This document shows, piece by piece, positions 35,320-51,414 of a DNA stretch of 62,640 nt. The notes beneath the pieces were generated by a model. That model did not search any database. It saw only the letters and a program-made list of their open reading frames with translations, and was not told the DNA's origin. Numbering within the stretch: position 1 is the stretch's first letter; each line of letters starts with the position of its first letter. Location of the stretch: NCBI GenBank assembly GCA_017541275.1, contig JAFXZM010000049.1, positions 1 through 62,640 of the forward strand. Reading direction: 5' to 3'. Origin of the DNA: Oscillospiraceae bacterium (GTDB lineage: Bacteria > Bacillota > Clostridia > Oscillospirales > Ruminococcaceae). The translations under genes were made by a program, and so were the position numbers.

Positions 35320-37530
35320 TTATTTCTTCAGCATCCGCATGGCGTTCAGTACCGCCAGAATCGCGACGCCGACATCGCCGAACACCGCTGCCCACATTCC
35401 CGCCAGACCCAGTGCCCCAAGCGTCAGCAGCACTGCCTTGACTCCAAGTGCGAATATCAGATTTTCTGTCACAATGCGGCGCGTTTTCTTCGCGACTGCC
35501 CGCGCTGCCGTCAGCCTCGTAAGCTCATCTGTCATCAGTACAACATCCGCCGCCTCAATCGCTGCGTCTGAGCCAAGCGCCCCCATCGCAATACCGAGAT
35601 CGGCACGCGCCAGCACCGGCGCATCGTTGATGCCGTCGCCGACAAACGCGAGCTTTTCACCCGCCGGCTTCCCTTTCAGCATTTCCTCCAGCCGTTCGAG
35701 CTTCTCACCCGGAAGCAGCTCCGCTGCATATCCGTCAAGCTGCAAATCCTTCGCAACGGCCTCCGCGATCACTCTATCATCACCCGTCAGCATCGTCATC
35801 CTCCGGATGCCGCCCGCCCGCAGCGCGCGAAGCGCCTCTCTGCTGTCCTTTTTGCAGGCATCCGCAATCAGAATACAGCCCGCAAAATGCCCGTCCTCGG
35901 CGACATATACCTTTGTGCCGGGCTTTTCACATGCCGCATAGGCGATGCCGTGACGCTCCATGAGCTTGGCACTGCCCGCGAGCAGATGTCTGCCGGCACT
36001 GACCGCTTCAATGCCGTATCCCGGCAGCTCGTCAAGCTCCTCACAGATTTCCCCTGCTGCTCCGCCGTTTGCCGCAAGCACTGACTGTGCGATCGGATGA
36101 TTCGAGCCCTGCTCGCAGACCGCCGCCAGCTTCAGCAGCTCCGCTTCGTCATAGCCCGGTGCCGGAAACAGCGACGTCACATGAAATACACCCTCTGTCA
36201 GCGTGCCGGTCTTGTCAAACACGATTTCCGTGACCCGGTTCAGCGCTTCCAGATAATTGCTGCCCTTGATTAGCACGCCCTGCTTCGAGGCCGCCCCGAT
36301 GCCGCCGAAATATGTCAGCGGAATCGAAATGACCAGCGCACAGGGGCAGGATACAATCAGAAATACAAACGCTCTGTGAATCCAGTCTGACCAGATGCCC
36401 CCGCATGCCAGCGGCGGAATCAGCGCAAGCAGCAGCGCCGCGATGACAACAACGGGCGTATAATATCGCGCAAACGTCGTTATGAAATTCTCGGCCGGCG
36501 CCTTTCGCGCAGCAGCACTCTCGACCATGCCGATGACCTTTGAGGCGGTCGATTCGCCGAACGGCTTTGTGACCTCCAGCGTCAGTGTGCCGGAGCAGTT
36601 GATGCAGCCCGAAAGCGCTGCATCGCCGATGCCGATGCGCCGCGGAACGGATTCGCCGGTCAGTGCGCTTGTGTCAAGCATCGACTCGCCGGCAATTACG
36701 GTGCCGTCCAGCGGAATGCGCTCTCCGGGCTTGACGACGATCTCATCCGTGACCGCGACCTCTCCGCAGGGGACGACCCGCAGTTCCCCGTTTTCCAGCA
36801 GATTCGCTGTATCCGGGCAGATCTCCATAAGAGCGGAGATCGAATGCCGCGAACGCTGCACAGCCATGGACTGAAACCACTCTCCGATTTGATAAAGCAG
36901 CATGACGGCGGCTGCCTCCGGGAATTCCCGCATTGCAATCGCACCGACCGTCGATACACTCATCAGGAAATGCTCATCAAATACGCGCCCGTGCACGATG
37001 TTTTTCAGCGCGTGCAGCACGACATCCCAGCCCAGCAGCGCATAGGTCAGCAGCATCAGCCCGTCAGAGACATATGCAGGCACCCCGCTCACAATCCGCG
37101 AAATCAGCAGTGCGGCGAAAAACATCACCGTGCCCGCTATGATGCGGATGAGCATACTGCGGTTCGCACCCTCACTGTGACTGTGCGCATGACCGTGTGC
37201 ATGTTCATGCGCATGCTCGTGTTCATGTTCGTGCCCGTGCGCATGCTCGTGTCCGTGACAATGCCCGTCACAGTGCGCATGTGCATGCGGTGCCGCTGCA
37301 TGCCCTGTGTGCGGCATGACATCCACATCCGGCTCATGCTTATGCACGATCGCCGTGATATCCCGCTCCAACGCCTCATGATGCTCCGTGCTGTCCGTGT
37401 GAACCGTCAGCGTTTGCTGCATCAGATTCACCGCCGCTGCCTTCACGATGCCCAGTGCGCCGACCTCGTGCTCGATTTTTGCAGCACAGTTCGGGCAGTC
37501 AAGCCCTTTGAGTGTATAGATCAGTTCCAT
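35320..37530 (-). CDS. cadA: Heavy-metal-exporting P1B-type ATPase (Zn/Cd/Pb/Co type)
   Basis: 736 aa. N-terminal metal-binding domain (GLDCPNCAAKIEHEVG), then a His-rich spacer of about 45 residues (alternating HAH, HGHEH), then the membrane core with TGESVP, the SCPCALVISIPL metal-transport helix, the phosphorylation site DKTGTLTEG, GSNHPIAQSV and GDGINDAPVLA. CPC plus the His-rich spacer points to Zn/Cd-type export rather than copper. The start at 37530 has CAGGAGGCTGAT upstream; the frame further upstream overlaps operator and terminator. It lies behind its own operator copy at 37553-37570. Confidence 0.95.
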   Translation of the reverse strand: MELIYTLKGLDCPNCAAKIEHEVGALGIVKAAAVNLMQQTLTVHTDSTEHHEALERDITAIVHKHEPDVDVMPHTGHAAAPHAHAHCDGHCHGHEHAHGHEHEHEHAHEHAHGHAHSHSEGANRSMLIRIIAGTVMFFAALLISRIVSGVPAYVSDGLMLLTYALLGWDVVLHALKNIVHGRVFDEHFLMSVSTVGAIAMREFPEAAAVMLLYQIGEWFQSMAVQRSRHSISALMEICPDTANLLENGELRVVPCGEVAVTDEIVVKPGERIPLDGTVIAGESMLDTSALTGESVPRRIGIGDAALSGCINCSGTLTLEVTKPFGESTASKVIGMVESAAARKAPAENFITTFARYYTPVVVIAALLLALIPPLACGGIWSDWIHRAFVFLIVSCPCALVISIPLTYFGGIGAASKQGVLIKGSNYLEALNRVTEIVFDKTGTLTEGVFHVTSLFPAPGYDEAELLKLAAVCEQGSNHPIAQSVLAANGGAAGEICEELDELPGYGIEAVSAGRHLLAGSAKLMERHGIAYAACEKPGTKVYVAEDGHFAGCILIADACKKDSREALRALRAGGIRRMTMLTGDDRVIAEAVAKDLQLDGYAAELLPGEKLERLEEMLKGKPAGEKLAFVGDGINDAPVLARADLGIAMGALGSDAAIEAADVVLMTDELTRLTAARAVAKKTRRIVTENLIFALGVKAVLLTLGALGLAGMWAAVFGDVGVAILAVLNAMRMLKK

Positions 37531-37552
37531 ATCAGCCTCCTGTTGTTTTACA

Positions 37553-37570
37553 GTTGAGCATTTATTCAAC
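37553..37570. promoter_or_regulatory. ArsR/SmtB-type operator, cadA copy
   Basis: GTTGAGCA-TT-TATTCAAC, an imperfect 8-2-8 palindrome, 23 bp before the ATPase start. It is nearly the same as the operator ahead of the repressor gene (38011-38028). Confidence 0.75.
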
Positions 37571-37583
37571 AATATGTTCGGTA

Positions 37584-37612
37584 AAATGCCCGGCACCGTT
37601 TCTGAGCCGGGC
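37584..37612 (-). terminator. Terminator between arsR-type gene and ATPase gene
   Basis: Stem GCCCGGC/GCCGGGC with an 11-nt loop, followed on the minus strand by ATTTTAC. It should reduce read-through from the repressor gene into the ATPase gene. Confidence 0.75.
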
Positions 37613-37630
37613 GGTTTTGCTTGCTTTTCG

Positions 37631-37996
37631 TTATTCGGAAATGTGCTCATAGCCCATGTCAAGTATCTTTTTCACATGATCGTCTGCAAGCGCGTAATAC
37701 ACGTTCTGCCCCTCCCTGCGGTATTTGACAAGCCTTGCAATCCGCAGTGACTTGAGCTGATGCGAAATCGCGGATTTGGTCACGCCCAGCAGCGCGGCCA
37801 GATCGCAGACGCACATTTCATGCTGCTCCAACGCATGAAGAAGCTGCACGCGCGTTGCATCGCCGAACAGCTTGAACAGTGTCGCAAGCTCGATATAGGT
37901 CTCTCTGCCGCAGAGCTGCTGCCGCACGGCCGACACGATCTCCTCATGGATAATATCGCAGTCGCACAGGGTTTTTTCCGGTTTTTCTTCTGCCAT
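37631..37996 (-). CDS. ArsR/SmtB-family metal-responsive repressor (CadC-like)
   Basis: 121 aa winged-helix repressor. N-terminal CDCD at 11-14, then ATLFKLFGDATRVQLLHALE and HEMCVCDLAALLGVTKSAISHQLKSL, where the C-V-C pair in the recognition-helix region is the classical CadC/ArsR metal site; the tail HVKKILDMGYEHISE is CzrA/SmtB-like. Metal binding should release it from the two palindromic operators. Own promoter at 38036-38064; ribosome binding site AAGGAGGCG. Confidence 0.94.
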   Translation of the reverse strand: MAEEKPEKTLCDCDIIHEEIVSAVRQQLCGRETYIELATLFKLFGDATRVQLLHALEQHEMCVCDLAALLGVTKSAISHQLKSLRIARLVKYRREGQNVYYALADDHVKKILDMGYEHISE

Positions 37997-39276: not shown

Positions 39277-41472
39277 TTATCCGTTTTTTCTGCGGAACTG
39301 TCCGGGGGTGACGCCCGTTACCTTCTGGAACTGCCGCAGGAAATAATTGTAATCCTCATAGCCGCACTGCTCCGCTACGCTCGCTATGCTCATGACCGTA
39401 TCCGAGAGCAGGTGCGAGGCATAACAGATGCGCGCGCTGATCGCGTCCTGATGAAAGCTGACGCCGAAGCAGCTCTTGTAGATCTGTCGGAAATAACCCG
39501 CACTGAACGCATGCTGCCGGCAGACCTCGTCCATCGAAAGATCAATCTCCCGGTAAAGCCGGTTCCGGACCGCAAACAGCGCCGCTGCATGCGGATGACT
39601 TTTCTGGCGCATCAGCATTTCCGTTTCCGTATCGAGCTTCTCCCGCAGAATCGCAATGCCGTCCGTTACGGACGCCGCCGGAAGCTGCGCCGTCACGCAG
39701 ATCACCGATTCCATGCCGTCCGAAACGGTCAGGTTCGTGCGTGCAATAATGCTCGACAGCAGCTTCTGCCGGAAAAACCGGCAGTCATCCTCTCCGCGGC
39801 ACGGAATATCCGCGGCCATAAAGGTATGCGCATCGAGGCGGCCGAGCACCGTACTCTGCGGCACGGCCTCGCGCAGAATCTCTGACACAAGCTGCACCCG
39901 TTCAATCTGCTTCTGCTGTGCGGAGGGGCTGACCTCGCTTTGCAGAACGTCTGTCCGCAGGGCAAGTCCCCAGACAAGCTGCTCTGTTTCGGAAAGCCGC
40001 GCCCGGACTGCCGATTCATAGCCGCGCGGATTGTAAAAACCGGTCAGGGAATCATGCTGATCGGAGAGATTCTGACAGTGCAACAGATAGCGGATATCAT
40101 TTTTCATGCAAAGGAATTCAAGGCCGTTCGAGATCGACTTCATCCAGTTGCGGAAAATATCGTCATAGGTATCGGGGCCGTGGTATTCCAGCACATAATA
40201 GCCGAAAAAATGCTTCTGAAAGAAAATCGGCAGATAATAATGCACGGAATCCTCCGGCGACCGCGCAAACAGCGCCTGAAAATCATGCTTGCGGCATGTG
40301 ATTGCCGACTGTCCGGCATTCCACGGCATCACGCTCCGGCAGGTCAGGATATCATCCGGTTTTTCCGCACCGGTATCATACCAGTTTTCGCAGAGGCAGA
40401 GATACATATTCTGCACCCAGCGGACAAGGAACTGATGCTCGCCCAGTACGCCGATAAAATCCTCCAGCGTGCTGCAAACTGTAAGCTGCTGCTCCACTGT
40501 TGCAAGCACATTCCATTTTTCATACTGCTGTTTGACCCGCAGCGCCTCCAGCTCGGCATGAAGCTGCACCGGATCTGTGCCGCAGCCGCACGAATCGCCC
40601 GGCACATGGATGCCTCTCGGCGCAGTAAACGCGGGCGGCTCGACCCCGTTTGCAACACTGTCGATGATCTCGACAGCGCTGATGCCCAGCTCAATGCGTG
40701 CCCGCTGATAGGTCGAGAGCATCGGCGAATAATAGATCCGCTCGTAAATATACTCATAGCCCATAATCAGGACATCCTCCGGCACGCGGATGCCGGCACC
40801 CAGAAACTTGTCCAGCAGGCCGTAGGCCATGTGGTCACTGGTGCAGAGAATCGCATCCGGAAGCGGGAGCTCTCCGCTGATATAGCGGGCGGCGAGCTTC
40901 TCACCGGAGGTCATCCAGAAATCGCCGTAATACACCCGTTCGGGATCGAACGCGATGCCCCGGCGCTCCAGTGCCGCACGGTAGCCGTTCACGCGGCGCT
41001 CTGCCGCCGGATTGCCCTCGAAGCCGGTGAGCAGGTCGATCTTTTCACAGTGATGCACCTGTATCAGATGCTCGGTGAGCTCCTCGATATCCCGTGCGTC
41101 GTCCGAATCAATAAACCGCACATTCGGAAAATCTATTTCCTCCACGTACATGCCGATCGCACACACGGGGATATCCTGCCGCTTTGCAAGCATGCCGCGG
41201 ATAAGCTCACGCAGCTTTTCATTGATGATCGACTCCTCGATCAGCACCAGCCCGCAGAGATCCTGCGAGAACATCAGCTCATATATGCGGTTTTCAAGCG
41301 CTAAATCACTATTGTAGTCATAAGAATTGTACAGATTGGAAAACACAACGACCTTGCGGCCGATCTCCTGCGCCTTCCGGATGATGCCCTTCATGATCTG
41401 CCGCTGCTCAATGCTGTTGACCTCAGCGGCGATGACGCCGATCATCCCTTTCGCTTTCTCGGGCCGAACCAT
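39277..41472 (-). CDS. Hybrid regulator: LacI-type ligand-binding domain, GGDEF-like domain, AraC-type DNA-binding domain
   Basis: 731 aa. Residues 1-290 are a periplasmic-binding-protein-like sensor of the LacI type (IGVIAAEVNSIEQRQIMKGI, FIDSDDARDIEELTEHLI, DAILCTSDHMAYGL, VLIMGYEYIYERIYYSPMLS) but without the usual N-terminal LacI helix-turn-helix. Then GDSCGCG, a GAF-like middle region (about 310-480), and a degenerate GGDEF-like domain (DSLTGFYNPRGYE start; HTFMAAD where GGDEF should be). The last ~110 residues are an AraC double helix-turn-helix (AEQCGYEDYNYFLRQFQKVT). No signal peptide, so cytoplasmic. Paralog at 49359 lacks the AraC part and has an intact GGDEF. Confidence 0.85.
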   Translation of the reverse strand: MVRPEKAKGMIGVIAAEVNSIEQRQIMKGIIRKAQEIGRKVVVFSNLYNSYDYNSDLALENRIYELMFSQDLCGLVLIEESIINEKLRELIRGMLAKRQDIPVCAIGMYVEEIDFPNVRFIDSDDARDIEELTEHLIQVHHCEKIDLLTGFEGNPAAERRVNGYRAALERRGIAFDPERVYYGDFWMTSGEKLAARYISGELPLPDAILCTSDHMAYGLLDKFLGAGIRVPEDVLIMGYEYIYERIYYSPMLSTYQRARIELGISAVEIIDSVANGVEPPAFTAPRGIHVPGDSCGCGTDPVQLHAELEALRVKQQYEKWNVLATVEQQLTVCSTLEDFIGVLGEHQFLVRWVQNMYLCLCENWYDTGAEKPDDILTCRSVMPWNAGQSAITCRKHDFQALFARSPEDSVHYYLPIFFQKHFFGYYVLEYHGPDTYDDIFRNWMKSISNGLEFLCMKNDIRYLLHCQNLSDQHDSLTGFYNPRGYESAVRARLSETEQLVWGLALRTDVLQSEVSPSAQQKQIERVQLVSEILREAVPQSTVLGRLDAHTFMAADIPCRGEDDCRFFRQKLLSSIIARTNLTVSDGMESVICVTAQLPAASVTDGIAILREKLDTETEMLMRQKSHPHAAALFAVRNRLYREIDLSMDEVCRQHAFSAGYFRQIYKSCFGVSFHQDAISARICYASHLLSDTVMSIASVAEQCGYEDYNYFLRQFQKVTGVTPGQFRRKNG

Positions 41473-41516
41473 GCGCGTCCCCCCCTTTGTGCATGCCGGT
41501 CTCGGTTTCTGTTTCT

Positions 41517-41545
41517 ATTATAATATCAAATCTTCAGATTGTCAA
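41517..41545 (-). promoter_or_regulatory. Consensus promoter of the hybrid regulator gene
   Basis: Minus-strand TTGACA, 17-bp spacer, TATAAT (perfect consensus). Confidence 0.88.
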
Positions 41546-41560
41546 GTGAATCTACAGATT
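41529..41560. promoter_or_regulatory. Twin palindromic operator AATCTNNAGATT
   Basis: Two copies, AATCT-TC-AGATT (41529-41540) and AATCT-AC-AGATT (41549-41560), with centres 20 bp apart, i.e. on the same face of the helix. They flank and touch the -35 of the hybrid regulator promoter. AraC-type proteins often bind paired sites at this spacing, so autoregulation is likely but inferred. Confidence 0.65.
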
Positions 41561-41648
41561 TTGAAGCACTCATAATCAACCGGATATCTTTGCACAATAC
41601 AAATTCAGATCGTTATAGAACATCCTGTCAGTTCAACATTGCAAAAAT

Positions 41649-41703
41649 ACCCCGGCCGCACCGGCAGACTTGCATCCTGCCGATATGACCGGGGTGTTTT
41701 TTT
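41649..41703. terminator. Strong bidirectional terminator after mreB-like gene
   Basis: Stem TACCCCGG/CCGGGGTG with an inner hairpin CGGCAG...CTGCCG. Flanked by TTTTTTTT on the plus strand and TATTTTTG on the minus strand, 4 bp beyond the stop codon at 41707. Confidence 0.85.
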
Positions 41704-41706
41704 TCT

Positions 41707-42720
41707 TCAGCGGCTTTGTGTATAGGCGTCGATGCGCTCGAAGCCGTCGAGCAGCATGTCTCTGTGCCGGAAGGCTCGCTCCGTTCCGCGTGCAACACAG
41801 GTCAGCGGATCACGCGCCGTGCGGCAGGGTACGCCGAGCATGCGCGTCAGATATTGCTCCAGTCCGCCGAGCAGCGCGCCGCCGCCCGTCAGCAGGATGC
41901 CGTTCCGGCAGATGTCCCCGACCAGCTCCGGCGGGGTCTCCTCCAGCACGCGCCGGATCGTTTCCACGACCGTATTGATATCATCCTCCAGCGCCTCCGA
42001 AATCTCGGCCTCGCTCAGATCAACCTGATCGGGCAGCCCGCGCGAAATATTCCGCCCCTTGACCGGCGCAATGATATCGTCGGAGGGATTGTAAAGATTA
42101 CAAAGATTCTTTTTCGCCTTTTCCGCCGAATTCTCGCCCAGCAAAACCTGATACTTGTTCTGCACATAGCGGATGATCGACTGATCGAAGCGGCGGCCGG
42201 CTATCTTCAGCGAGCGCGCCGTGACAATTCCGTTCATCGACACGACCGCGATATCCGTCGTGCCGCCGCCGATATCGACAACCATGTGCCCGACCGGCTT
42301 GTTAATCGAAATGCCCGCGCCGAGCAGTGCCGCGAGCGGCTCCTGAATCAGATGCACCTTGCGCGAGCCCGTGCTCATGGCTGCATCGAGAATCGCACGC
42401 TTCTCAACATCCGTAATCAGCGAGGGAATGCATATGACAATGCGCGGCTTCATGACGCGGACGCCCGCCGCTGCATCAATCAGCTCCCGCATCAATGCCT
42501 GCGTCAGAATGTCATCCGAAATGACACCGTCCTGAAGCGGGTGTACGACGGCGATGTAGGACGGGGAGCGCCCCTCCATGCGGTATGCCTCCGTTCCGAC
42601 TGCGACCACGCGCTCCGTGCGCCGGTCGAACGCGATCACGGAAGGCTCGTTCAGTACAACGCCCTTTCTGCGGCGCGTGATGATAATATTCGCCGTACCA
42701 AGATCAATTCCGATATCCAT
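41707..42720 (-). CDS. mreB: MreB/Mbl-type bacterial actin
   Basis: 337 aa, full length. Actin-fold ATPase that guides cell-wall elongation. Phosphate-1 loop GIDLGTANIII, connecting IPSLITDVEKRAILDAA, phosphate-2 VVDIGGGTTDIAVVS and the adenosine motif LTGGGALLGGLEQYL are all present. It has no mreC/mreD neighbours and ends in its own terminator, so it may be a secondary paralog (Mbl/MreBH-like). CAGGAGCAAA precedes the start. Confidence 0.93.
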   Translation of the reverse strand: MDIGIDLGTANIIITRRRKGVVLNEPSVIAFDRRTERVVAVGTEAYRMEGRSPSYIAVVHPLQDGVISDDILTQALMRELIDAAAGVRVMKPRIVICIPSLITDVEKRAILDAAMSTGSRKVHLIQEPLAALLGAGISINKPVGHMVVDIGGGTTDIAVVSMNGIVTARSLKIAGRRFDQSIIRYVQNKYQVLLGENSAEKAKKNLCNLYNPSDDIIAPVKGRNISRGLPDQVDLSEAEISEALEDDINTVVETIRRVLEETPPELVGDICRNGILLTGGGALLGGLEQYLTRMLGVPCRTARDPLTCVARGTERAFRHRDMLLDGFERIDAYTQSR

Positions 42721-42752
42721 TTTGCTCCTGACCTTTCTTTGTCTGCGGTTTC

Positions 42753-43232
42753 TTATTTCTCTATTGTGATTTCCATTTCGGTGAATTTCGAGCGGCTGAC
42801 GGAAAAACCGAGCTTTTCATAGATCGGGCGGCCCATATCGCTCGCCGAAAGCGTCACCAGATCAAGCCCGAGCCGCTTTGCCTCTGCAAGAAGCTGCTGC
42901 ATGATGCGCGTCGCACAGCCCTGCCCGCGATAGGCCGGCTCGGTATATACGCCGAGCACAAGCCCCGACTTCCCGCCCGGAAAATGCGGGTTTGCCGGCT
43001 TTTCCTGACAGCAGAGGATCGCACAGGCACAGAGCCCCTCCCCATCCGCCTTCTCGGCGGCAAAGCAATAGCAATCGCGGCCTAAATGCGCTGCAAAATA
43101 CTGCGGAAGCTGTGCGCGGATCGCATTAAGCTGCGCATCGGGCAGTGCTCCGAACTCTTCTTCAAAATAAGCAAGCCGCAGCCGGACAAGCTCCGGTATA
43201 TCGTATTCGGCCGCACATCTGACTGAAATCAT
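42753..43232 (-). CDS. GNAT-family N-acetyltransferase
   Basis: 159 aa. The acetyl-CoA-binding motif YTEPAYRGQGCATRIMQQLL follows the strand GLVLGVYT; the later VTLSASDMGRPIYEKLGF is a common GNAT end. Substrate unknown. The start at 43232 has AGGAGGGCTT upstream; an in-frame ATG at 43262 lies inside the leader. It sits 32 bp before the mreB-like gene in the same direction and may be co-transcribed. Confidence 0.9.
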   Translation of the reverse strand: MISVRCAAEYDIPELVRLRLAYFEEEFGALPDAQLNAIRAQLPQYFAAHLGRDCYCFAAEKADGEGLCACAILCCQEKPANPHFPGGKSGLVLGVYTEPAYRGQGCATRIMQQLLAEAKRLGLDLVTLSASDMGRPIYEKLGFSVSRSKFTEMEITIEK

Positions 43233-43267
43233 AAGCCCTCCTGACGGTTCATCAGAAATCATTTTTT

Positions 43268-43296
43268 ATTATAGCACAGATTTTGATTTTTCACAA
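43268..43296 (-). promoter_or_regulatory. Promoter of acetyltransferase / mreB unit
   Basis: Minus-strand TTGTGA, 17-bp spacer, TATAAT preceded by TGC (extended -10). Confidence 0.65.
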
Positions 43297-43359
43297 GGGG
43301 GATTTTGCAGAAAGGCAAGGCTGTCCCGCGAGCAACGGAATGCCGCATGCGATTCCGTA

Positions 43360-44340
43360 TCATTCAAAAGACACATCCGTGAAGACCGTCACGCGGGAAC
43401 CGTCGGCGGCCAGATGCACGGTGCCGTCTAAATCGGTGCGGTATACATTGCAGCCCGCCGCACGCAGCCGCGCAAGACATGCCGGCGCGGGATGCCCGTA
43501 ATCATTCGGTGCGCCGACGGAAATCACCGCAAACTGCGGCGCCGCTGCCGCAAGAAAGGCCTCCGTGCCCGATGTGCTGCTGCCGTGATGCGAAACCTTC
43601 AGTACGGTTACAGGTTCGATCAGCCCCGCTGACAGCATTGCAGCCTCGCCCTCTGCCCCCAGATCGCCCGCGCAGAAAAATGAGAAGCCGCCGAATGTCA
43701 CACGGCAGCCCAGCGAGCAGTCGTTCAGGTCGGTAAAGCCGCTGTTGTCCGTACAGAGCAGCTCGATCTCCGCTCCTCCGAGGGGCAGCTTCTCCCGGCA
43801 CTGCGCATGCCGCACGGGTATGCCCTGCTGCTCAGCGGTCTCCAGTGCGTGAAGATATGACGGAACCGTCGGGGTCAGCGCCGCAGGAAAATCCGGCAGA
43901 ATCAGCATGCCGGCCGGTACACGCCGCAGAACAGTCTGCATGCCGCCGATGTGATCTGCGTGCGGGTGCGAATTGACCGCGTAATCCAGATGCGTAATGC
44001 CCAGCGAATGCATCGCCGAAACAACACGCCCGCCCTGTGTATAATCTCCGGCGTCAATCAGCGCCGCATGTCCCTGACATTCCAGCAGAACCGCGTCCCC
44101 CTGTCCGACATCCAGCACATAAATATTCAGCGCATCCGGCACGCATGCCGCTTCGCCTGCACGGCGCGGCCGGCTGCGGAAATACAGCAGAAGCCCCAGC
44201 GCGGTCATCACCGTGAGCAGCACCGCCGCCGGAAGCGCCCGATGCAGAACACGGCGGAACCGCTCCCGCGCCGCTTTTCGGCGGTGCTTCCGCTCAATTT
44301 CCCGCACTCTGCGTTCGATCTGCTGTTCCTTCCTCCGCAT
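43360..44340 (-). CDS. Membrane-anchored metallo-beta-lactamase-fold hydrolase (ComEC C-terminal-like)
   Basis: 326 aa. A basic N-terminus and one membrane segment (ALPAAVLLTVMTALGLLLYF, about 37-57) are followed by an extracellular domain with IYVLDVGQGDAVLLECQGHAALIDAGD, the metal site SHPHADHIGGM, a second His loop LKVSHHGSSTSGTEAF and the closing SVGAPNDYGHP. This is the stand-alone version of the ComEC/Rec2 hydrolase domain; some relatives are secreted nucleases or phosphodiesterases. The start at 44340 has GGAGGAG nine bases upstream; the longer frame runs into the upstream gene. Confidence 0.88.
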   Translation of the reverse strand: MRRKEQQIERRVREIERKHRRKAARERFRRVLHRALPAAVLLTVMTALGLLLYFRSRPRRAGEAACVPDALNIYVLDVGQGDAVLLECQGHAALIDAGDYTQGGRVVSAMHSLGITHLDYAVNSHPHADHIGGMQTVLRRVPAGMLILPDFPAALTPTVPSYLHALETAEQQGIPVRHAQCREKLPLGGAEIELLCTDNSGFTDLNDCSLGCRVTFGGFSFFCAGDLGAEGEAAMLSAGLIEPVTVLKVSHHGSSTSGTEAFLAAAAPQFAVISVGAPNDYGHPAPACLARLRAAGCNVYRTDLDGTVHLAADGSRVTVFTDVSFE

Positions 44341-44440
44341 TGCGCAATGCTCCTCCGTCCTCAGTTTTCGATGCCCCATGACAACGCAGGGCCGCCAAAA
44401 TAGATGAACCCTTCCCGCGCACTGCGGCATAATACCTTTC

Positions 44441-45118
44441 TCACGCGAATTCCGTGCCGTCGGCACAGAGAATCGCCGTCCGCTCGGCATGCAGCATGCC
44501 CGTCCGGATATCCGGCGCGCGCTCCGGCAGGCTGCTCACAAACGCATCCGTCAGCAGGCCGGGGTTTACGTTGACCGCCGTGCCCGCAGGCATCCGCAGC
44601 TTCAGCCAGATGCCGTCCGCAAGCGTCTGCGTCATGAGAATCTGCGCCTGTGCCTTGACATCAACCTGCGCTGTGCCGCGCTTGGTCTTTTTCTCAACAA
44701 GTATTTCATCCTGTGCGATAAAGCTGTCCCATGCCGCACGCAGCCCCTCCGCAGAGGTGCCTTCGGCGCAGTCCAAAGCAATCGCGTATTCTGCAAAGGC
44801 AATGTCCGTATGCTTGCGGATCGGCTGCGCAACCCGTTTGATCTGCAAATCAGGCGGCAGCACGCGGTTCAGGCGCTGCATCGCCTCCTGCATGGACATC
44901 TCGCCGTCAATGCGGAAATCCATGCACTCGCACCCGCTTTCATAGCCCAGAGACAATGCCAGCGGAAACATCAGATATGCATGCGGGTTGAAGCCCTCGG
45001 TATACCAGATCGGCACGCCGGCACGCTTGAATGCCCGCTGCATGCAGCGCATCAGGTCGAGGTGGGAGATATACTTTGCGCGTCTGCGCTTTTCAAAGGT
45101 CGCTCTGACGGGTACCAT
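44441..45118 (-). CDS. DUF2344 / TIGR03936 radical-SAM-linked protein
   Basis: 225 aa. Recognised by VRATFEKRRRAKYISHLDLM, RAFKRAGVPIWYTEGFNPHA and FPLALSLGYESGCECMDF, the core of the DUF2344 family. In Clostridia this protein is usually encoded with (or fused to) the TIGR03960-type radical-SAM protein, which is found here three genes upstream (46106-47950). The biochemical role is unknown. 14 bp from the acetyltransferase gene upstream, so part of the same operon. Confidence 0.9.
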   Translation of the reverse strand: MVPVRATFEKRRRAKYISHLDLMRCMQRAFKRAGVPIWYTEGFNPHAYLMFPLALSLGYESGCECMDFRIDGEMSMQEAMQRLNRVLPPDLQIKRVAQPIRKHTDIAFAEYAIALDCAEGTSAEGLRAAWDSFIAQDEILVEKKTKRGTAQVDVKAQAQILMTQTLADGIWLKLRMPAGTAVNVNPGLLTDAFVSSLPERAPDIRTGMLHAERTAILCADGTEFA

Positions 45119-45132
45119 GTTCCGTTCCTTTC

Positions 45133-45699
45133 TCAGCGCTGCTGCTCGTATTCGCTGCGCAGAATCGAGAAATACAGCCGCCCCACATATTCGCCGTCCA
45201 TGCAGAAGTAATCCCGCAGCGTTCCCTCATACGTAAAGCCGCATTTTTCGATCACCCGCTTGGAGGGCACATTGATCGTTTTTGTGCAGATCTGCACCTT
45301 ATGCAGATTGATTTTGTCAAAGCCGAATGCGATCACCGCCTTTGTCGCTTCGGTCGCATAGCCTTTGCACTGAAACGCTCTGCCGATGCAGTATTCGATC
45401 TCGGCGAAATGGTTTTTGCTGTCTACCAGAAAATAGGCGATCTGTCCGATGCATTCGCCGGACTCCTTTTCGATCACTGCCCAGCGGTAATAATCATCCT
45501 TTTCATAGGAACCGATGTATTTGTCGAGCAGCCCCTTGACCGCTTCGGTCGTTTCGTAGACCGGCTCGGAATACATGCGCTGCACCTGCGCGTCACCCGC
45601 CCAGTTCTTCAGCATATCGGCATTGTCGGAATAGGCAAAGCGGCGCAGAATCAGGCGCTCTGTTTCAATGGTCTGTGTTCCGTTATGTGTCAGCATCAT
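45133..45699 (-). CDS. GNAT-family acetyltransferase (RimJ/RimL-like)
   Basis: 188 aa. Starts ETERLILRRFAYSDNADMLK, typical of RimJ/RimL/SpeG-like acetyltransferases, with IGRAFQCKGYATEATKAVIA as acetyl-CoA-binding loop and NVPSKRVIEKCGFTYEGTLR as the common end motif. It may modify a ribosomal protein N-terminus or a small amine. Two adjacent ATGs (45699, 45696) share the ribosome binding site AAGGGTG. Confidence 0.9.
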   Translation of the reverse strand: MMLTHNGTQTIETERLILRRFAYSDNADMLKNWAGDAQVQRMYSEPVYETTEAVKGLLDKYIGSYEKDDYYRWAVIEKESGECIGQIAYFLVDSKNHFAEIEYCIGRAFQCKGYATEATKAVIAFGFDKINLHKVQICTKTINVPSKRVIEKCGFTYEGTLRDYFCMDGEYVGRLYFSILRSEYEQQR

Positions 45700-45711
45700 A
45701 TTTCACCCTTT

Positions 45712-46077
45712 TCAGCGTTTTTCCTGATATGCATAGCCGAAATGAATCGGCGGCGCCGTCACGGAGACATATATGAACTCCGTATCGCCGTCATTCAGCA
45801 GGCCGTGAACGTCTTTGTCTGCAAAGCGCACGACGTCGCCCGCCGCAAACGGCTTCTCCTGTTCGTCTGCAAGCAGCAGCCTTCCCGTGCCTTTGAGCGC
45901 ATACCAGATCTGCTCGGAGGCTTCGTGGATATGTCTGGGCTGGCTTGCGCCGGGCTCCAGATGCACCTCCGTAATCGTGACCCGTTTGCTTTCGGAGTTT
46001 TCCGGATTCAGAAGCTGACGGGATACCACACCCGGATTCGCCAGCTCTTTGATTGCATTGCCGCTGATAAATTCCAT
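45712..46077 (-). CDS. Small cupin-domain protein
   Basis: 121 aa, a single cupin barrel: VTITEVHLEPGASQPRHIHEA has the metal-binding H-x-H of cupin motif 1, and GDVVRFADKDVHGLLNDGD has motif 2 with its His. Function unknown; such cupins are isomerases, dioxygenases or binding proteins. It lies between the radical-SAM gene and an acetyltransferase with gaps under 30 bp. AAGGAGAAAACAGTC precedes the start. Confidence 0.88.
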   Translation of the reverse strand: MEFISGNAIKELANPGVVSRQLLNPENSESKRVTITEVHLEPGASQPRHIHEASEQIWYALKGTGRLLLADEQEKPFAAGDVVRFADKDVHGLLNDGDTEFIYVSVTAPPIHFGYAYQEKR

Positions 46078-46105
46078 GACTGTTTTCTCCTTTTTGAAAT
46101 CAGGC

Positions 46106-47950
46106 TCAGAAGCAGGGGCGGTGCGTGATCTTCGTCACGCCGCAGCCTGCACATTTCGCCCGGCAGTGCGGTGTGACCTGCGCCTGCTTCGCCTTTTCGT
46201 TTTCCTTTATCAAAAATGACTTTTCTACGTAATAATCAATGTGATCCCACGGGAACACCTCATCGTAGGAGCGAGCCCGGTTCGCGTAGAATTCCACATT
46301 CAGACCGGCAGCCGAAAACGCCTCCAGCCAGAGATCATACCGGAAATGCTCCGACCATGCGTCAAATACGCAGCCGCGCTGCCATGCACCGTATATGACC
46401 GCACAAAGCCGGCGGTCGCCTCTTGCAAGCACAGCCTCCAGAATGCTGGAATCGGGGAAATGCCAGCTTGCCCGGATGCGCTTGTGACCCGAAACCGCCT
46501 CCTCCAGTATCTTCTGCTTGTGCGCGATCATTTCACGGGTGTCCTGCGGGTGAAACTCGAACGGCGTAAACGGCTTCGGTACAAAGGTCGCAACAGAGCA
46601 CGAAATCTGCACCGGCCTGCCCTTCGGCCGGCGCTCCGATTCATAAAACATATCGACTACCCGCTGCGCCAGCTCAATAATACCGCGGATATCGTCATCC
46701 GTTTCGGTCGGCAGTCCCATCATAAAATACAGCTTCACAGACGTCTGCCCCGCATCAAACGCGATCTTGCAGGTGCGCATCAGCTCTTCCTCGGTGACGT
46801 TTTTGTTGATGACGTCGCGGAGCCGCTGCGTACCGGCCTCCGGTGCAAAGGTCAGGCCGCTGCTCCGGACGCGCCGCAGCCGGTTCATCAGTCCCGTACT
46901 GAAATTGTCTACGCGCAGGGACGGCAGGCTGAGATTGATGTGCGCATCCTCCGTAAAGGTCAGCAGCCCGTCCATCATTTCCTCAATGCGGGAGTGATCG
47001 GATGTGGAAAGAGAGCACAGTGACAGCTCGTCATAGCCGGTGTTTTCAATGAGCGTGCGCGCCTGCCTGCAAATGACCTCCGGCGTTTTCTCGCGGAACG
47101 GCCGGTAGAGAAATCCCGCCTGACAGAACCGGCAGCCGCGGATGCAGCCCCGCAGCACCTCCGTCACGGCGCGGTCGTGAACAATCTCCGAAAACGGTAC
47201 GACAAAATCCTCCGGCACCTCGGCTTTGTCCATATCATCAATGATGCGCTTGCGCACAACCGAAGGTATGCCCGGCTCCGGCGTGACCGCCCTGACTGTG
47301 CCGTCCCCGTTGTATGTGACCTCGTACAGCGACGGCACATAGACACCCTCGATCTGTGCGGCCGCACGCAGAAATTCCGTGCGGGACGCGCCTGCATCGC
47401 GCATTCTGACATATAAATCCATGACCTCAAGATCGAGCTCCTCGCCCTCGCCCATGAAAAACAGGTCGATGAAATCCGCGATCGGCTCCGGATTGCACGC
47501 GCAGGAGCCCCCCGCACAGACAATCGGTGCAATCGCCTCGCCGCGGTCCTTCTGCCAGACCGGAACACCTGCCAGATCCAGCATGTTCAGAATATTCGTA
47601 TAGCACAGCTCGTAGCCGAGCGTGAAGCCGATGAAATCAAAATCTTTGATCGGCTCCAGACTTTCGAGCGCATACAGCGGCAGACCGTTCGCCCGCATCA
47701 GCGCCTCAAAATCGGTGTCGGGCGCAAAAACCCGCTCGCACCAGTATTCCGGGCGGTTGTTGATGCAGGTGTACAGAATTTTCATGCCGAGATTGCTCAT
47801 GCCGACATCGTAGCGGTCGGGAAAACAGAAGGCAAACCGCGCCTTGAGCTGCGATTTGTCCTTCATCACACTGCCCATTTCGCCGCCGATATACCGTGCG
47901 GGCTTCTGTACCTGAAGCAGCAGCGGTTCGATTTTTTCAAAGAGGCTCAT
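46106..47950 (-). CDS. TIGR03960-type radical-SAM protein
   Basis: 614 aa. N-terminal B12-binding-like region (FCFPDRYDVGMSNLGMKILY, ALESLEPIKDFDFIGFTLGY, VCAGGSCACNPEP), then the radical-SAM core with RGCIRGCRFCQAGFLYRPFR (C-x3-C-x2-C) and LRVDNFSTGLMNRLRRVRSS, and a Cys-rich end CRAKCAGCGVTKI. Paired with the DUF2344 protein; reaction unknown. The start at 47950 follows GGAGATAGATTT. First gene of the run 47950-44441. Confidence 0.92.
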   Translation of the reverse strand: MSLFEKIEPLLLQVQKPARYIGGEMGSVMKDKSQLKARFAFCFPDRYDVGMSNLGMKILYTCINNRPEYWCERVFAPDTDFEALMRANGLPLYALESLEPIKDFDFIGFTLGYELCYTNILNMLDLAGVPVWQKDRGEAIAPIVCAGGSCACNPEPIADFIDLFFMGEGEELDLEVMDLYVRMRDAGASRTEFLRAAAQIEGVYVPSLYEVTYNGDGTVRAVTPEPGIPSVVRKRIIDDMDKAEVPEDFVVPFSEIVHDRAVTEVLRGCIRGCRFCQAGFLYRPFREKTPEVICRQARTLIENTGYDELSLCSLSTSDHSRIEEMMDGLLTFTEDAHINLSLPSLRVDNFSTGLMNRLRRVRSSGLTFAPEAGTQRLRDVINKNVTEEELMRTCKIAFDAGQTSVKLYFMMGLPTETDDDIRGIIELAQRVVDMFYESERRPKGRPVQISCSVATFVPKPFTPFEFHPQDTREMIAHKQKILEEAVSGHKRIRASWHFPDSSILEAVLARGDRRLCAVIYGAWQRGCVFDAWSEHFRYDLWLEAFSAAGLNVEFYANRARSYDEVFPWDHIDYYVEKSFLIKENEKAKQAQVTPHCRAKCAGCGVTKITHRPCF

Positions 47951-48090
47951 AAATCTATCTCCGTTAATCGTATGTACATTCCTGTATGCGGGTGCGGCAG
48001 ACTGCACCGCCGTCCCTCCCCGCTTACAGTATACACCATTCCGGCGAAAAAGTAAAGCAGTTTTCCCCGCCGGTGCAGTCTTCCGCCCTG

Positions 48091-49299
48091 TCAGCGCATA
48101 TACCGCAGGGCAAGCGCGTCCCAGTCAAGGGCGGAGAGCTTTGCCGCTGCCCGCGTAATTGTTTCGCGGCTTCCGAAGGATGAAAACCGCACCCAGCCCT
48201 CGCCGCATTCGCCGAAGCCCACCCCCGGTGAGGCTGCAATGCCGCAGCGCGTCAGCAGCCCGTCAAAGCAGTCCCATGACCTCATGCCGTAGGGGCATTC
48301 CATCCACACGTAGGGCGCATGCACGCCGCCGGTTGTGAACATTCCGCTGCGGGTCAGCGCGTGCCGGATCAGATCGGCATTTTCCATATAATACTGCACA
48401 TCGGCACGCACCTGCCGCCGGCCCTCCGGCGTAAATACGGCCGCTGCGCCGCGCTGTACGATATAGGATGTGCCGTTGTATTTCGTAGACTGCCGCCGCA
48501 TCCACAGCCTGTAAAGCGGCTGCGTGCCCTGCTTCAGCGCCCGCGGAACAATTACCCAACTGCACCGGACACCTGTGAAGCCCGCCATTTTCGAGAAGGA
48601 ATTGATCTCGATTGCACAGGTTTCCGCTCCGGCAATCTCAAAAATGCTGCGGGGCAGTGCCGCACTGCGGATATACGCTTCATAGGCGGCATCATAAATA
48701 ATGCAGGCATGATGCGCATGCGCGTACTCGACCCACGCCTGAAGCTGGGCGCGGGAATACACCGCACCGGTCGGATTGTTCGGGGAGCACAGGTAGATAA
48801 GGTCAGCGTGTACGCGGTCATCCGGCATCGGGAGAAAGCCGTTTTCCCGCGTGCCGACCGAAAACAGGATGCACCGCCCTGCCATCACGCTGGTATCATA
48901 AAACACCGGATAAACCGGATTCGGCAGCAAAACGGTACTTTCCGGCGCAAAAAGATCACAGAGGCTCGCAAGATCGCTTTTCGCGCCGTCGCTGACAAAA
49001 ATATCCTCCGGCTCTGCGCTGACATTGAAGCTGCGGTAATAATCCGCAATCGCCCTGCGGAGAAACAGCTCGCCCTGCACATCGCCGTAGCCGTGAAAGC
49101 TCTCTGCCCGGCGCATCTCCTGCGCGGCTGCGGACATCGCATCGCAGACTGCCGGCGCGAGCGGCCGCGTGACATCGTTGATGCCGAGCGGCAGCAGCTC
49201 CGCCTCCGGGTTTGCATCGCGGAATTTCCGCACGCGCGCCGCTATCTCGGCAAACAGATAATTCTGCTCCAGCTTCAGCAGGTTTTCATTGAGCTGCAT
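48091..49299 (-). CDS. dapL: LL-diaminopimelate aminotransferase
   Basis: 402 aa. PLP enzyme that makes LL-diaminopimelate directly from tetrahydrodipicolinate and glutamate, for lysine and peptidoglycan. NENLLKLEQNYLFAEIAARV, LGINDVTRPLAPAVCDAM and ESFHGYGDVQGELFLRRAI are DapL hallmarks; SPNNPTGAVY and EINSFSKMAGFTGVRCSW contain the PLP-binding residues (Schiff-base Lys in FSKM). The start at 49299 has GAGAGG upstream; a GTG at 49320 is less likely. Single gene. Confidence 0.92.
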   Translation of the reverse strand: MQLNENLLKLEQNYLFAEIAARVRKFRDANPEAELLPLGINDVTRPLAPAVCDAMSAAAQEMRRAESFHGYGDVQGELFLRRAIADYYRSFNVSAEPEDIFVSDGAKSDLASLCDLFAPESTVLLPNPVYPVFYDTSVMAGRCILFSVGTRENGFLPMPDDRVHADLIYLCSPNNPTGAVYSRAQLQAWVEYAHAHHACIIYDAAYEAYIRSAALPRSIFEIAGAETCAIEINSFSKMAGFTGVRCSWVIVPRALKQGTQPLYRLWMRRQSTKYNGTSYIVQRGAAAVFTPEGRRQVRADVQYYMENADLIRHALTRSGMFTTGGVHAPYVWMECPYGMRSWDCFDGLLTRCGIAASPGVGFGECGEGWVRFSSFGSRETITRAAAKLSALDWDALALRYMR

Positions 49300-49322
49300 C
49301 TGCTCCTCTCCCCCTTTCACAA

Positions 49323-49348
49323 AAACTGCCGCCCTGAGGCGGCAGTTT
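49323..49348 (-). terminator. Terminator between sensor gene and dapL
   Basis: Perfect 11-bp stem AAACTGCCGCC/GGCGGCAGTTT with a CTGA loop, 10 bp beyond the stop codon at 49359. A T-rich run follows on the minus strand. Confidence 0.85.
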
Positions 49349-49358
49349 CATTGTTTTA

Positions 49359-51308
49359 TCAGTTCTTCGGCGGGTCGGGCTGCTTCAGATATTTCGACGG
49401 ATTCTTCTTCTTCTTCTCCTCATACATCCGGTTATCTGCGACGGTAATGAGCTGGAAGATCGAGCTGTCCTTCGGCGGCACCGTAATGCATGCGCCGAGG
49501 CTGACGCTCAGCTCATACGGCAGATCGGAATTCCGGTTGCAGATTTCCAGCGCCTTGTTGATGCGGCCGCGCAGCGCATCTGCCGCCGCCTCCGAATAAT
49601 CTGCACCGAAAATGAAAAATTCATCTCCGCCGAACCGGCAGGCGATTTCTCCGCGCAGGCAGCTTTCCTGAAGGATCGCGGCGATGCTGCGGATCGCGTG
49701 GTCGCCGGCCTTATGGCCGAAATTATCATTGATATGCTTCAGGCCGTCCATATCCGCAAACATGACCATGACCTGTCTGTGCTCTACGGCACAGGCATCG
49801 AATAAGGCCTGCGAACTGCGCTTGAAGCCGTTGCGGTTATATATACCGGTCAGCGAGTCGATCGCGTACAGCTTATCGAGCTCCTGTACGATCTCGTCAA
49901 GGCAGAGCAGCTTGCGGAAGTTTTCCAGCGTATTGCTGATATTGATGCTCCACGAATGGAACAGTGCGCTTGCCATCGGGAAATCTGAATTGACAATCGC
50001 GAAGAAGCCGAGGCAGCGCTCCCGGAAATGCAGCGGAACAAAGAACATATTGCGGTTCCGCTCCGAATCCGTCCGCAGGCGCGGAAGAATGCGGTCTGAG
50101 GTGAAACCGCTTTCGCCGTGGAATTCGCCGTCAAAATACGAAAGCGGCATTATCATGCGCTGCGAATACCCGTGAACGGTATACGTATCGGCGGGGAGTG
50201 CGCCGGTATAGCCGACCTCCTCCTGAATCTGCTTCATATGCCAGTTATCGTTGAGGCAGAGATAAAACTCCTCACATTTCGTCTTGCGCACAAACTGCTT
50301 GAGCGTGTCGATATATTCGTCAAAGGAATCGCACTCGACGAGCGAGCAGGCCATCTGGTCATGGCGCGATATATCGCGGAGCAGATTTTCCTGAAGCTGA
50401 TACGTGCGCTTTTTATATACGGTGATATCCTCCGGGTCGCTGACCTGACAGCCGCAGCTTTCGGAGAAGATCGGCACGGCGCTGAGCTCCTGCACGCGCT
50501 CCGGTTTTTCGCCTGCAATGCAGCGGATAATCAGCTCGCATGCCAGTGCGCCGGACTGCATCAGCGGACGCTCGATCGTCGTCAGCGCCGGAGAAAAATG
50601 TCTTGCGTTATAGATATTGTCGAAGCCGGAAACAAGGATATCCTCCGGGCAGCGGATGCCGTTTTCCTCCAGTGTCAGCACGGCGGAAATCGCCATTGCG
50701 TCATTGGCGCAGACAATCGCCTCCGGGAAGGGCAGGTCGGAGCTGAGGAACGATTCAACTGCCCTGCGGCCGTCCTTGGCGCGGAACGTGCCGTGATAGA
50801 CGCGATCCGGCTCAATCGGGATATCGTGCTCCCGCAGCACCTTCTGGAATGCCGCGAGGCGCTCCGTGCTTTCGGAGTTGGTATCCGGGCCGGAGATGAA
50901 ATTCAGCCGCTTGATATGATGCTGTTCGATCAGATGTCTGGTGATCTGTTCCATTGCGGCGGCATTCCGGATTCCGATATAGTACAGATCGCCGAGGTCA
51001 CGGTCGATGCTGACGGCGGGTATGCCGGCTGCGCGGATCCGCTCATAGAGCGCATCGCCGAGGTCGGCAGAAAATGTATTGGACAGCAGAACCACGCCGT
51101 CGAACAGTGAAAAATTCGGCAGCTCAAAGATATTATATTCGCCCTGATCGTATTTGGGGTTCGCGAGAATCCCCCCGAATGCGATAAAATGCGCGATATT
51201 GACATGATGCTGTGCCGCATAGCGGTGAATCCCTTTCAGGATTGACTGCTGGTATTCTTCATCAATTCCGGATGCGATCACGGCGATCGTGAAGCTGTTG
51301 TTGGGCAT
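49359..51308 (-). CDS. Hybrid sensor: LacI-type ligand-binding domain plus GGDEF diguanylate cyclase
   Basis: 649 aa. Residues 1-290 are a LacI-type sugar-binding sensor without DNA-binding helix-turn-helix (FTIAVIASGIDEEYQQSILK, VVLLSNTFSADLGDALYERI, AIVCANDAMAISAVLTLEEN, ILVSGFDNIYNARHFSPALT). Then SESCGCQ, a GAF-like middle, a short coiled segment and an intact GGDEF domain (DSLTGIYNRNGFKR, FADMDGLKHINDNFGHKAGD, CRFGGDEFFIFG). It should make cyclic di-GMP in response to a sugar-like ligand. No membrane segment. The start at 51308 has AGGTGAACCT. Paralog of the 39277 protein. Confidence 0.9.
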   Translation of the reverse strand: MPNNSFTIAVIASGIDEEYQQSILKGIHRYAAQHHVNIAHFIAFGGILANPKYDQGEYNIFELPNFSLFDGVVLLSNTFSADLGDALYERIRAAGIPAVSIDRDLGDLYYIGIRNAAAMEQITRHLIEQHHIKRLNFISGPDTNSESTERLAAFQKVLREHDIPIEPDRVYHGTFRAKDGRRAVESFLSSDLPFPEAIVCANDAMAISAVLTLEENGIRCPEDILVSGFDNIYNARHFSPALTTIERPLMQSGALACELIIRCIAGEKPERVQELSAVPIFSESCGCQVSDPEDITVYKKRTYQLQENLLRDISRHDQMACSLVECDSFDEYIDTLKQFVRKTKCEEFYLCLNDNWHMKQIQEEVGYTGALPADTYTVHGYSQRMIMPLSYFDGEFHGESGFTSDRILPRLRTDSERNRNMFFVPLHFRERCLGFFAIVNSDFPMASALFHSWSINISNTLENFRKLLCLDEIVQELDKLYAIDSLTGIYNRNGFKRSSQALFDACAVEHRQVMVMFADMDGLKHINDNFGHKAGDHAIRSIAAILQESCLRGEIACRFGGDEFFIFGADYSEAAADALRGRINKALEICNRNSDLPYELSVSLGACITVPPKDSSIFQLITVADNRMYEEKKKKNPSKYLKQPDPPKN

Positions 51309-51385: not shown

Positions 51386-51414
51386 ATTTTATCATATGAA
51401 CGGAAATTTGTCAA
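51386..51414 (-). promoter_or_regulatory. Promoter of the GGDEF hybrid sensor
   Basis: Minus-strand TTGACA, 17-bp spacer, TAAAAT. The leader (about 70 nt) contains the near-palindrome CATAGTACATAG (51363-51374). Confidence 0.75.

Follow-up and report, generated by a model that had tools for sequence, protein, structure and literature searches.

Two hybrid sensors on one LacI-type chassis in an Oscillospiraceae bacterium: GGDEF loss in AraC-fused proteins and a candidate regulator of hemicellulose enzymes

Two hybrid sensors and their family

The window analysed here, the whole 62,640-nucleotide stretch of contig JAFXZM010000049.1 (GenBank assembly GCA_017541275.1, Oscillospiraceae bacterium), holds two minus-strand genes for hybrid sensor proteins that join one kind of sensor core to different outputs: an AraC-type DNA-binding head in the gene at 39277–41472 and a diguanylate cyclase (DGC) in the gene at 49359–51308. 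Both lie where a reading made from the window alone (the sequence-only reading) had placed them. Their relatives indicate that the GGDEF domain lost its signature upon fusion of an AraC output behind it, and that the AraC protein probably governs genes for hemicellulose-degrading enzymes. The window is contig C11 of its own-genome assembly (2.04 Mb, 75.6% complete); among the genomes compared, its nearest named matches are metagenome-assembled genomes of Ruminococcus and Oscillospiraceae, several of them from rumen, omasum or faeces.

The AraC-output gene encodes 731 residues; 21 of 30 congeneric genomes, its own among them, carry an ortholog with 53% identity or more. The protein begins with a LacI-type ligand domain lacking the LacI helix-turn-helix (HTH; residues 1–297, 40582–41472) and ending in an S-C-G-C motif (residues 294–297, 40582–40593). 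A GAF-like middle (residues 298–437, 40162–40581), a long signalling-type helix that is single in the predicted model (residues 438–472, 40057–40161) and a dead GGDEF domain with RLDAHTF in place of RFGGDEF (residues 473–632, 39577–40056) follow. The C terminus is the double HTH of AraC/XylS regulators (residues 633–731, 39280–39576), matched by HTH_18 (E 8.7e-16, 58.4 bits) and HTH_AraC (E 4.3e-15, 55.9 bits) well above their cut-offs of 33.6 and 26.6 bits.

The DGC-output gene encodes 649 residues with the same order of parts: ligand domain (residues 1–287, 50448–51308), S-C-G-C motif (residues 284–287, 50448–50459), GAF-like middle placed from the model and a profile search (residues 288–449, 49962–50447), signalling-type helix seen in the predicted model (residues 450–482, 49863–49961) and a GGDEF domain (about residues 484–640, 49389–49859). 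That this GGDEF is intact, as had been proposed, is borne out by its Pfam match (E 9.1e-35; 120 bits against a cut-off of 23.8) and its signature, RFGGDEFF; D519, N527, D536, D562 and E563 are invariant in 36 aligned sequences. The metal-binding acids D519 and D562 are 43 residues apart, the same spacing as in the metal ligands D287 and D330 of YfiN (PMC7825114), and the protein looks like a working cyclic di-GMP synthase. A promoter-like site, TTGACA-17-TAAAAT with TG before the −10 box (51386–51414), spans the start of a longer open reading frame (ORF) at 51395; because it crosses this upstream extension and AGGTGA precedes the ATG at 51308, the start read earlier at 51308 is kept. A terminator-like hairpin lies 3′ of the gene (49329–49345).

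Pfam Peripla_BP_3, the ligand-domain type of LacI/GalR repressors, matches both proteins (E 3e-16 and 1e-25), no LacI-type HTH is listed by Pfam in either at E up to 1, and the ligand domain begins within the first ~10 residues, in agreement with the sequence-only reading, which had also noted the S-C-G-C motif in both. The two proteins are homologous: their alignment (E 1e-48) runs through the start of the GGDEF domain and has identical residues in 138 of 520 columns (27%). The genes between them (41473–49358) are unrelated. No signal sequence is visible by eye, which is consistent with both being cytoplasmic one-component sensors. Their predicted models have confidence scores (predicted local distance difference test, pLDDT) of 81.9 and 89.1, and whole-model structure searches returned match lists filled by the ligand domain.

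The own genome holds five members of this family: besides the window pair, a second DGC (contig C61), a second AraC protein (C54) and a GGDEF-EAL protein (C37). Queried with the sensor core, 167 of 247 same-family genomes gave matches at E 1e-20 or better; at most six candidates were scored per genome and the match lists were capped, so that per-genome family counts are lower bounds. The 178 distinct core-matching frames were reduced to 166 carrying most of the core, and to 165 on removal of identical cores. Among these 165 members the output is GGDEF alone in 99, a GGDEF-like domain with AraC in 51, AraC without GGDEF in 4, a GGDEF-EAL type with or without a C-terminal region in 7, and EAL plus that region without GGDEF in 3; one frame is cut. 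Across the class, matches at E 1e-45 occurred in 19 of 291 genomes, among them the bacterium's own and two others from the same family, and the 13 classifiable of 14 loci (two of them same-family) carry GGDEF and/or EAL outputs, AraC in none. The proposal of one ancestor with two outputs is upheld by the homology of the window pair and by the family tree, and the outputs in fact number more than two. A single origin of the AraC fusion was not rejected (approximately unbiased test, p-AU 0.27; 52 rows, 28 AraC and 24 others, simpler model).

Outputs thus vary around a fixed sensor core that carries an invariant C-x-C: both cysteines of the S/T-C-x-C motif are present in 165 of 165 members. An arginine and an aspartate that correspond to ligand contacts of LacI are kept in 161 and 162 of the 165, less than these cysteines, and a third cysteine, within the GAF-like domain, in 154. 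Metal binding or redox sensing is a possible role for the conserved cysteines. The GAF-like middle has a single PDB profile match, to 3ci6 (E 0.011), a phosphoenolpyruvate (PEP)-protein phosphotransferase entry that is presumably the GAF domain of that enzyme; in the 34 members scanned, Pfam returned no GAF family and only weak scattered matches to unrelated families. The earlier description of the middle as GAF-like is thus weakly supported. The signalling helix is among the most conserved parts (85.3–94.7% identity in the C54-branch and window-branch sets); S-helices that link receptor to output domains, GGDEF included, have been described (PMC1592074).

Two of the rarer architectures deserve mention. 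The C37 protein (L015:2685-6401) has 1239 residues, comprising ligand domain, GAF-like part, a GGDEF whose first metal aspartate is replaced, EAL and a tail of ~345 residues for which no convincing match was found in Pfam, NCBIfam or PDB sequences; related tails follow EAL in two separate family branches. In the four family members at loci L165, L166 and L167, AraC stands directly behind the GAF-like part without GGDEF, and the L166 locus contains a relative of a GH5 enzyme.

Gene neighbourhood and candidate operator

The neighbours of the AraC gene were followed in 25 other members of its branch, chosen among the matches listed by frame length (about 700–840) and place in the tree and not by neighbours; 22 come from other genera and three (L132, L137, L163) from congeners. 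A carbohydrate-active enzyme gene adjoins the regulator in 21 of the 25, and in 16 of the 25 it is divergent from it. The enzymes are glycoside hydrolases (GH) of family GH10 (L142, L144; with GH43 in L149), GH43 (L138, L148, L154; with GH30C in L132), GH98 (L141, L143, L163; behind the regulator in L140 and L147), GH30C types (L134, L136, L146; convergent in L152 and L145), GH5 (L150, L151, L153) and a convergent GH9-dockerin-GH16 (L133); L135, L137, L046 and L139 have no adjoining enzyme gene or could not be judged. Pfam finds a dockerin in the adjacent gene at 12 of the 21 loci, and most of the enzymes begin with a signal-like stretch by eye (that of L154 does not).

Among the 20 congeneric orthologs, 15 have a GH10 or a carbohydrate-binding module (CBM)/dockerin-type gene in the available flanks of up to 1.5 kb, nine of these checked with Pfam and six by tblastn only. 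Six have a divergent GH10 gene (L198, L201, L202, L203, L206, L207), six the CBM/dockerin/esterase end of a larger protein (L191–L194, with the esterase end only in L191; L199, upstream; L204, convergent) and three a CBM-dockerin gene (L195–L197). The match of the GH30-esterase query in these orthologs covers the CBM, dockerin and esterase parts, not GH30. Outside the 20, the lower-identity L209–L211 have a GH43 neighbour and L208 has none. Taken together, GH10, GH30, GH43 and the CE1/CE4 esterases act on xylan, and some GH98 enzymes are xylanases; GH5, GH9 and GH16 are broader, which is why we speak of hemicellulose, mostly xylan. This link, which appears beside the gene in relatives and not in the window, could not be seen by the sequence-only reading.

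The AraC gene is preceded by a promoter-like TTGACA-17-TATAAT (41517–41545, minus strand) that matches the consensus at 12 of 12 positions, as do those of 20 of the 21 orthologs (11 of 12 in the remaining one). An operator candidate overlaps it (41530–41563): two 14-bp half-sites in direct repeat with a period of 20 bp, the second lying over the −35 box. Taking the best match in each of the 21 orthologs, a box near GACAAAATGCAGAT stands 5′ of −35; the gap between them is 7 in 14 orthologs, 4 in four, and 6, 8 or 27 in one apiece. A second half-site (at least 3 bits) occurs at a period of 20–21 bp in 13 of the 21, with a few others at 23, 24, 9 and 8. AraC/XylS regulators bind direct-repeat half-sites about two helical turns apart near −35, and candidate sites of this kind are thus present. 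The overlap of the second half-site with −35 and spacer suggests autorepression in the bound state.

A weight matrix trained on the 21 orthologs was then applied to the other branch members, with a two-box score of at least 15 within 250 nt upstream as threshold and L139 (<150 nt upstream) excluded. Such a site was found in 9 of 24 branch members against 0 of 27 other AraC members and 0 of 99 DGC members; the controls gave 1 in 960 shuffles and 7 in 1000 segments drawn at random from these loci, where overlap with true sites is possible in some cases. The own AraC promoter is the best two-box site in the own-genome sequence scanned. A loose search of that genome for the first half-site gave 12 matches, two of them the own promoter, and none in the reversed control. 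Of the ten others, a single one is joined by a second half-site at +20, which scores 15.1 bits, a value that 1e-5 of background positions attain. This two-box site (contig C36, 5630–5663) lies ~320 bp upstream of two adjacent genes (L244:5984-10145), the first for a GH10-CBM-dockerin enzyme and the next for a CBM-dockerin-polysaccharide deacetylase. An inverted two-box site also stands ahead of a dockerin-esterase gene in L163.

On these grounds we take the AraC protein to be an autoregulated sugar sensor of hemicellulose (mostly xylan) enzymes and the DGC to turn a related cue into cyclic di-GMP, a reading to which we give a probability of roughly 0.7. Several observations weigh against it. 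Enzyme queries find no such gene in the 62.6-kb window, nor in the flanks of its nearest orthologs L188–L190 or of L200 and L205 (437–1503 nt upstream), and the longer loci of L190 and L200 (L128, 17 kb; L129, 9 kb) have an enzyme gene in 0 of 2 cases. The neighbour counts are not independent, given the kinship of the members and the near-copies L191/L192, L198/L201, L141/L143, L142/L144 and L140/L147, and the GH30 assignments rest mainly on the GH30C beta-sandwich domain. As for the operator, 15 of the 24 branch members score below 15 in the independent test, and the box was first read by eye off the same 21 promoters, so that the shuffle test on orthologs is flattering. Sites scoring at least 20 occur twice in 3.4 million positions besides the C36 site and the AraC promoters; judged on its score only, the C36 xylanase site, which came from the 12 loose matches, is close to what chance would give and is best regarded as a lead.

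The ligand might be something other than a hemicellulose sugar, for example a purine, which we consider unlikely though among the better-placed of the alternatives. PurR tops the PDB sequence list for the DGC ligand domain (E 6e-24), but ancestral LacI and CcpA top that for the AraC protein, the LacI-like arginine and aspartate are kept, and hemicellulases adjoin the gene in relatives.

Slightly less probable still is that the AraC protein mainly regulates itself, the nearness of enzyme genes reflecting their general richness in such genomes. Fibre-degrading genomes are indeed rich in these genes, the window's own copy adjoins none, and the strongest operator-like site is its own promoter. However, among loci 7 kb or longer the same enzyme queries match only 3 of 62 of the DGC type and 0 of 9 of the EAL type (4 of 14 for other AraC loci), and the intergenic region shared with a divergent enzyme gene in 16 of 25 branch members also speaks against mere richness; the 22 of 23 obtained for the branch itself in this control is circular, most queries having come from those loci. 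A sugar-responsive regulator of hemicellulase genes remains the reading we prefer.

Other neighbours of the two genes carry no weight in this argument. The DGC gene (window 48091-51308) precedes an LL-diaminopimelate aminotransferase gene, with the terminator-like hairpin between them. This adjacency recurs in 9 of 15 close-ortholog loci (the window, L019, L048–L050 and L054–L057, L019 and L050 apparently being one genome) and was undetected in L051–L053, L058, L059 and L185, as judged from naive longest-ORF calls that include some spurious frames and were used for the aminotransferase only. An operon logic for the pair was rejected in view of the partial adjacency and the hairpin. The U32-like gene behind the AraC gene was likewise discarded as a part of the system, being present among 25 ortholog loci only in the own genome and L188; a relative (59%) also occurs in the locus of L151, a more distant branch member. 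The frame at 35320–37996, judged by eye from its translation, looks like a P-type metal ATPase rich in histidine; an ArsR-type regulator stands next to it. Viral contigs contained no stretch matching the AraC-protein patterns.

Fate of the GGDEF domain

All 99 stand-alone members retain the GGDEF signature (GGDE in 98, SGDE in 1), and in all of them the two metal acids and the two guanine positions are present as well. The guanine positions correspond to the guanine-binding N335 and D344 of PleD. In the AraC-fused members GGDE or SGDE occurs in 0 of 51. The window AraC protein falls outside the GGDEF cyclases: with RLDAHTF at the signature it has no Pfam GGDEF match at E up to 1, and both metal and both guanine positions are lost.

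Taken in isolation, the GGDEF stretch of this protein scores 9.5 bits against a clean GGDEF model, where the best of 1100 shuffles reached 9.0, and is not significant. Its identity as a decayed GGDEF, claimed in the sequence-only reading, rests instead on three other lines: the corresponding stretches of orthologs reach 16.8 and 19.0 bits, scores among the AraC members grade downward from 130 bits, and in the predicted model (pLDDT 46–86 in ten-residue blocks) strands and helices follow one another as in GGDEF, minus its first helix, as compared by eye.

What became of the domain differs between branches. Among 21 members of the window branch, mean identity is 41.7% in the dead GGDEF, against 62.8% in the ligand domain, 66.1% in the GAF-like part, 86.9% in the helix (residues 448–472) and 69.6% in AraC; despite this lowest identity the dead GGDEF shows only 1.2 indel columns per pair. 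We infer from this pattern that it serves as a length-keeping spacer and not as a nucleotide sensor. In the C54 branch (11 members) the dead GGDEF is at 83.3%, the ligand domain at 74.7%, the GAF-like part at 70.9% and AraC at 95.6%; the guanine positions are kept and both metal positions lost in 14 of 14. The C54 protein itself (L003:1486-3720), the second AraC paralog of the genome, has a plainly recognisable GGDEF that reads ARIEDADF. This remnant may be a nucleotide site under selection, and is a candidate GTP sensor.

Across the AraC-fused members, 19 of 51 keep the positions equivalent to N527 and D536 of the DGC, including all 14 of the C54 branch. In all five rows of GGDEF-EAL proteins with a C-terminal region, which represent 4 distinct proteins, the first metal acid is lost and the other positions are kept. 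One AraC-fused member, L164 (825-residue frame), runs counter to the general picture in keeping all four metal and guanine positions, its signature reading NGDHF; it is possibly an intermediate. Overall this is a clear case of an enzyme domain decaying upon fusion of a new output behind it, with two later fates, conservation (C54) and fast evolution (window branch).

The sequence-only reading had suggested that the decayed domain became a nucleotide sensor, and one could suppose that in the window protein it senses GTP or cyclic di-GMP and feeds a second signal into the HTH. A degenerate GGDEF can bind GTP and steer its neighbour, as in CC3396 (PMC4823724). The own genome and 10 congeners have GGDEF and EAL domains in 11 of 11 cases, while PilZ was found in 0 of 11 (the control was positive in 5); a search for both classes of cyclic di-GMP riboswitch gave 0 of 11, the control genomes being equally without match. 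The guanine-type positions retained in 19 of 51 members and the conservation of the C54 domain also favour such a role somewhere in the family. In the window protein, however, the metal and guanine positions and the first helix are gone and the domain is the fastest-evolving one in orthologs, and four AraC members have no GGDEF domain at all. We therefore rejected nucleotide sensing as the main account of the window protein and hold it to be improbable; the C54 paralog fits the suggestion better.

Proposed mechanism and known systems

In the mechanism that we propose, both proteins would use the common chassis of LacI-type sugar domain, C-x-C motif, GAF-like domain, long signalling helix and terminal output. 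Binding of a sugar would close the ligand domain, and the GAF-like part and long helix would relay the change. In the DGC the helix would drive a pair of intact GGDEF domains to make cyclic di-GMP. In the AraC protein the dead GGDEF would act as a spacer of kept length, and two AraC heads would bind the direct repeat ~20 bp apart, both at the protein's own promoter and at hemicellulase genes, many of them dockerin-bearing. The ligand is likely a sugar released from hemicellulose, of the xylo-oligosaccharide class, and the enzyme genes would be activated or derepressed.

A wider scheme, which we regard as speculative and rather doubtful as a whole, would extend this to the family: one chassis with outputs exchanged around a fixed sensor core whose C-x-C may supply a metal or redox second input, a GGDEF that died upon AraC fusion, a window branch assigned to cellulosomal hemicellulases, a C54 branch turned into a GTP gauge with a metal-free pocket, and paralogs that read sugar and guanine state between them. 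That the two window proteins instead form one pathway, the cyclic di-GMP of the DGC being read by the AraC protein in the cross-talk that the sequence-only reading had imagined, is very improbable, for although they share ancestry and the same 12 kb in the own genome, their orthologs lie on separate contigs in genomes G246 and G188, the intact GGDEF signature is found in none of the AraC-fused members, and the AraC-type operator (score at least 15) precedes none of the 99 DGC genes.

To our knowledge, the switching-on of dockerin-bearing fibre enzymes in rumen and gut ruminococci is largely unknown, and the present analysis offers candidates for a regulator, its operator and its class of ligand, together with possible target genes that lie next to the regulator in many genomes. 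In Clostridium cellulolyticum, XydS/XydR regulates a cluster of dockerin-bearing hemicellulases and binds upstream of its targets (PMC3572039). It is a two-component system, whereas the window AraC system would hold sensor and output in one protein.

The arrangement closest to this is XylR of E. coli, which is said to combine a LacI/periplasmic-binding-protein-type sugar domain with an AraC double HTH in one cytoplasmic protein and to activate xylose genes. Unlike the window AraC protein, XylR reportedly has no GAF-like domain, C-x-C motif or GGDEF remnant; the match of its PDB chains (4fe7, 4fe4) to the window protein is confined to the HTH (E 1.5e-6). As regards AraC-family regulators in the cyclic di-GMP field, we know of no GGDEF remnant in CuxR or VfmE. 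These two resemble the window AraC protein in belonging to that family and field, and bind cyclic di-GMP through an RxxxR motif (PMC9045272). The CC3396-type GGDEF-EAL proteins likewise use a degenerate GGDEF for regulation and not for catalysis; the GGDEF of CC3396 binds GTP and activates EAL (PMC4823724), whereas the window protein has lost this site and has DNA binding as its predicted output.

A 2022 review notes that Periplas_BP (LacI-like) domains, which LacI-family regulators also contain, are associated with cyclic di-GMP enzymes, may bind sugars and are without a validated role (PMC8846402); in the part of that review drawn on here, a GAF-like part, a C-x-C motif, AraC variants and fibre-enzyme genes go unmentioned. 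Among the papers listed in searches of the open-licence literature, none was recognised by its title or abstract beginning as treating the present architecture; most subscription papers fall outside that scope. LacI-like domains on cyclic di-GMP enzymes are already known, as is, in XylR, the pairing of a LacI-type domain with AraC; what is new is the shared chassis with exchanged outputs, the rule of GGDEF loss, the operator candidate and the link to fibre enzymes.

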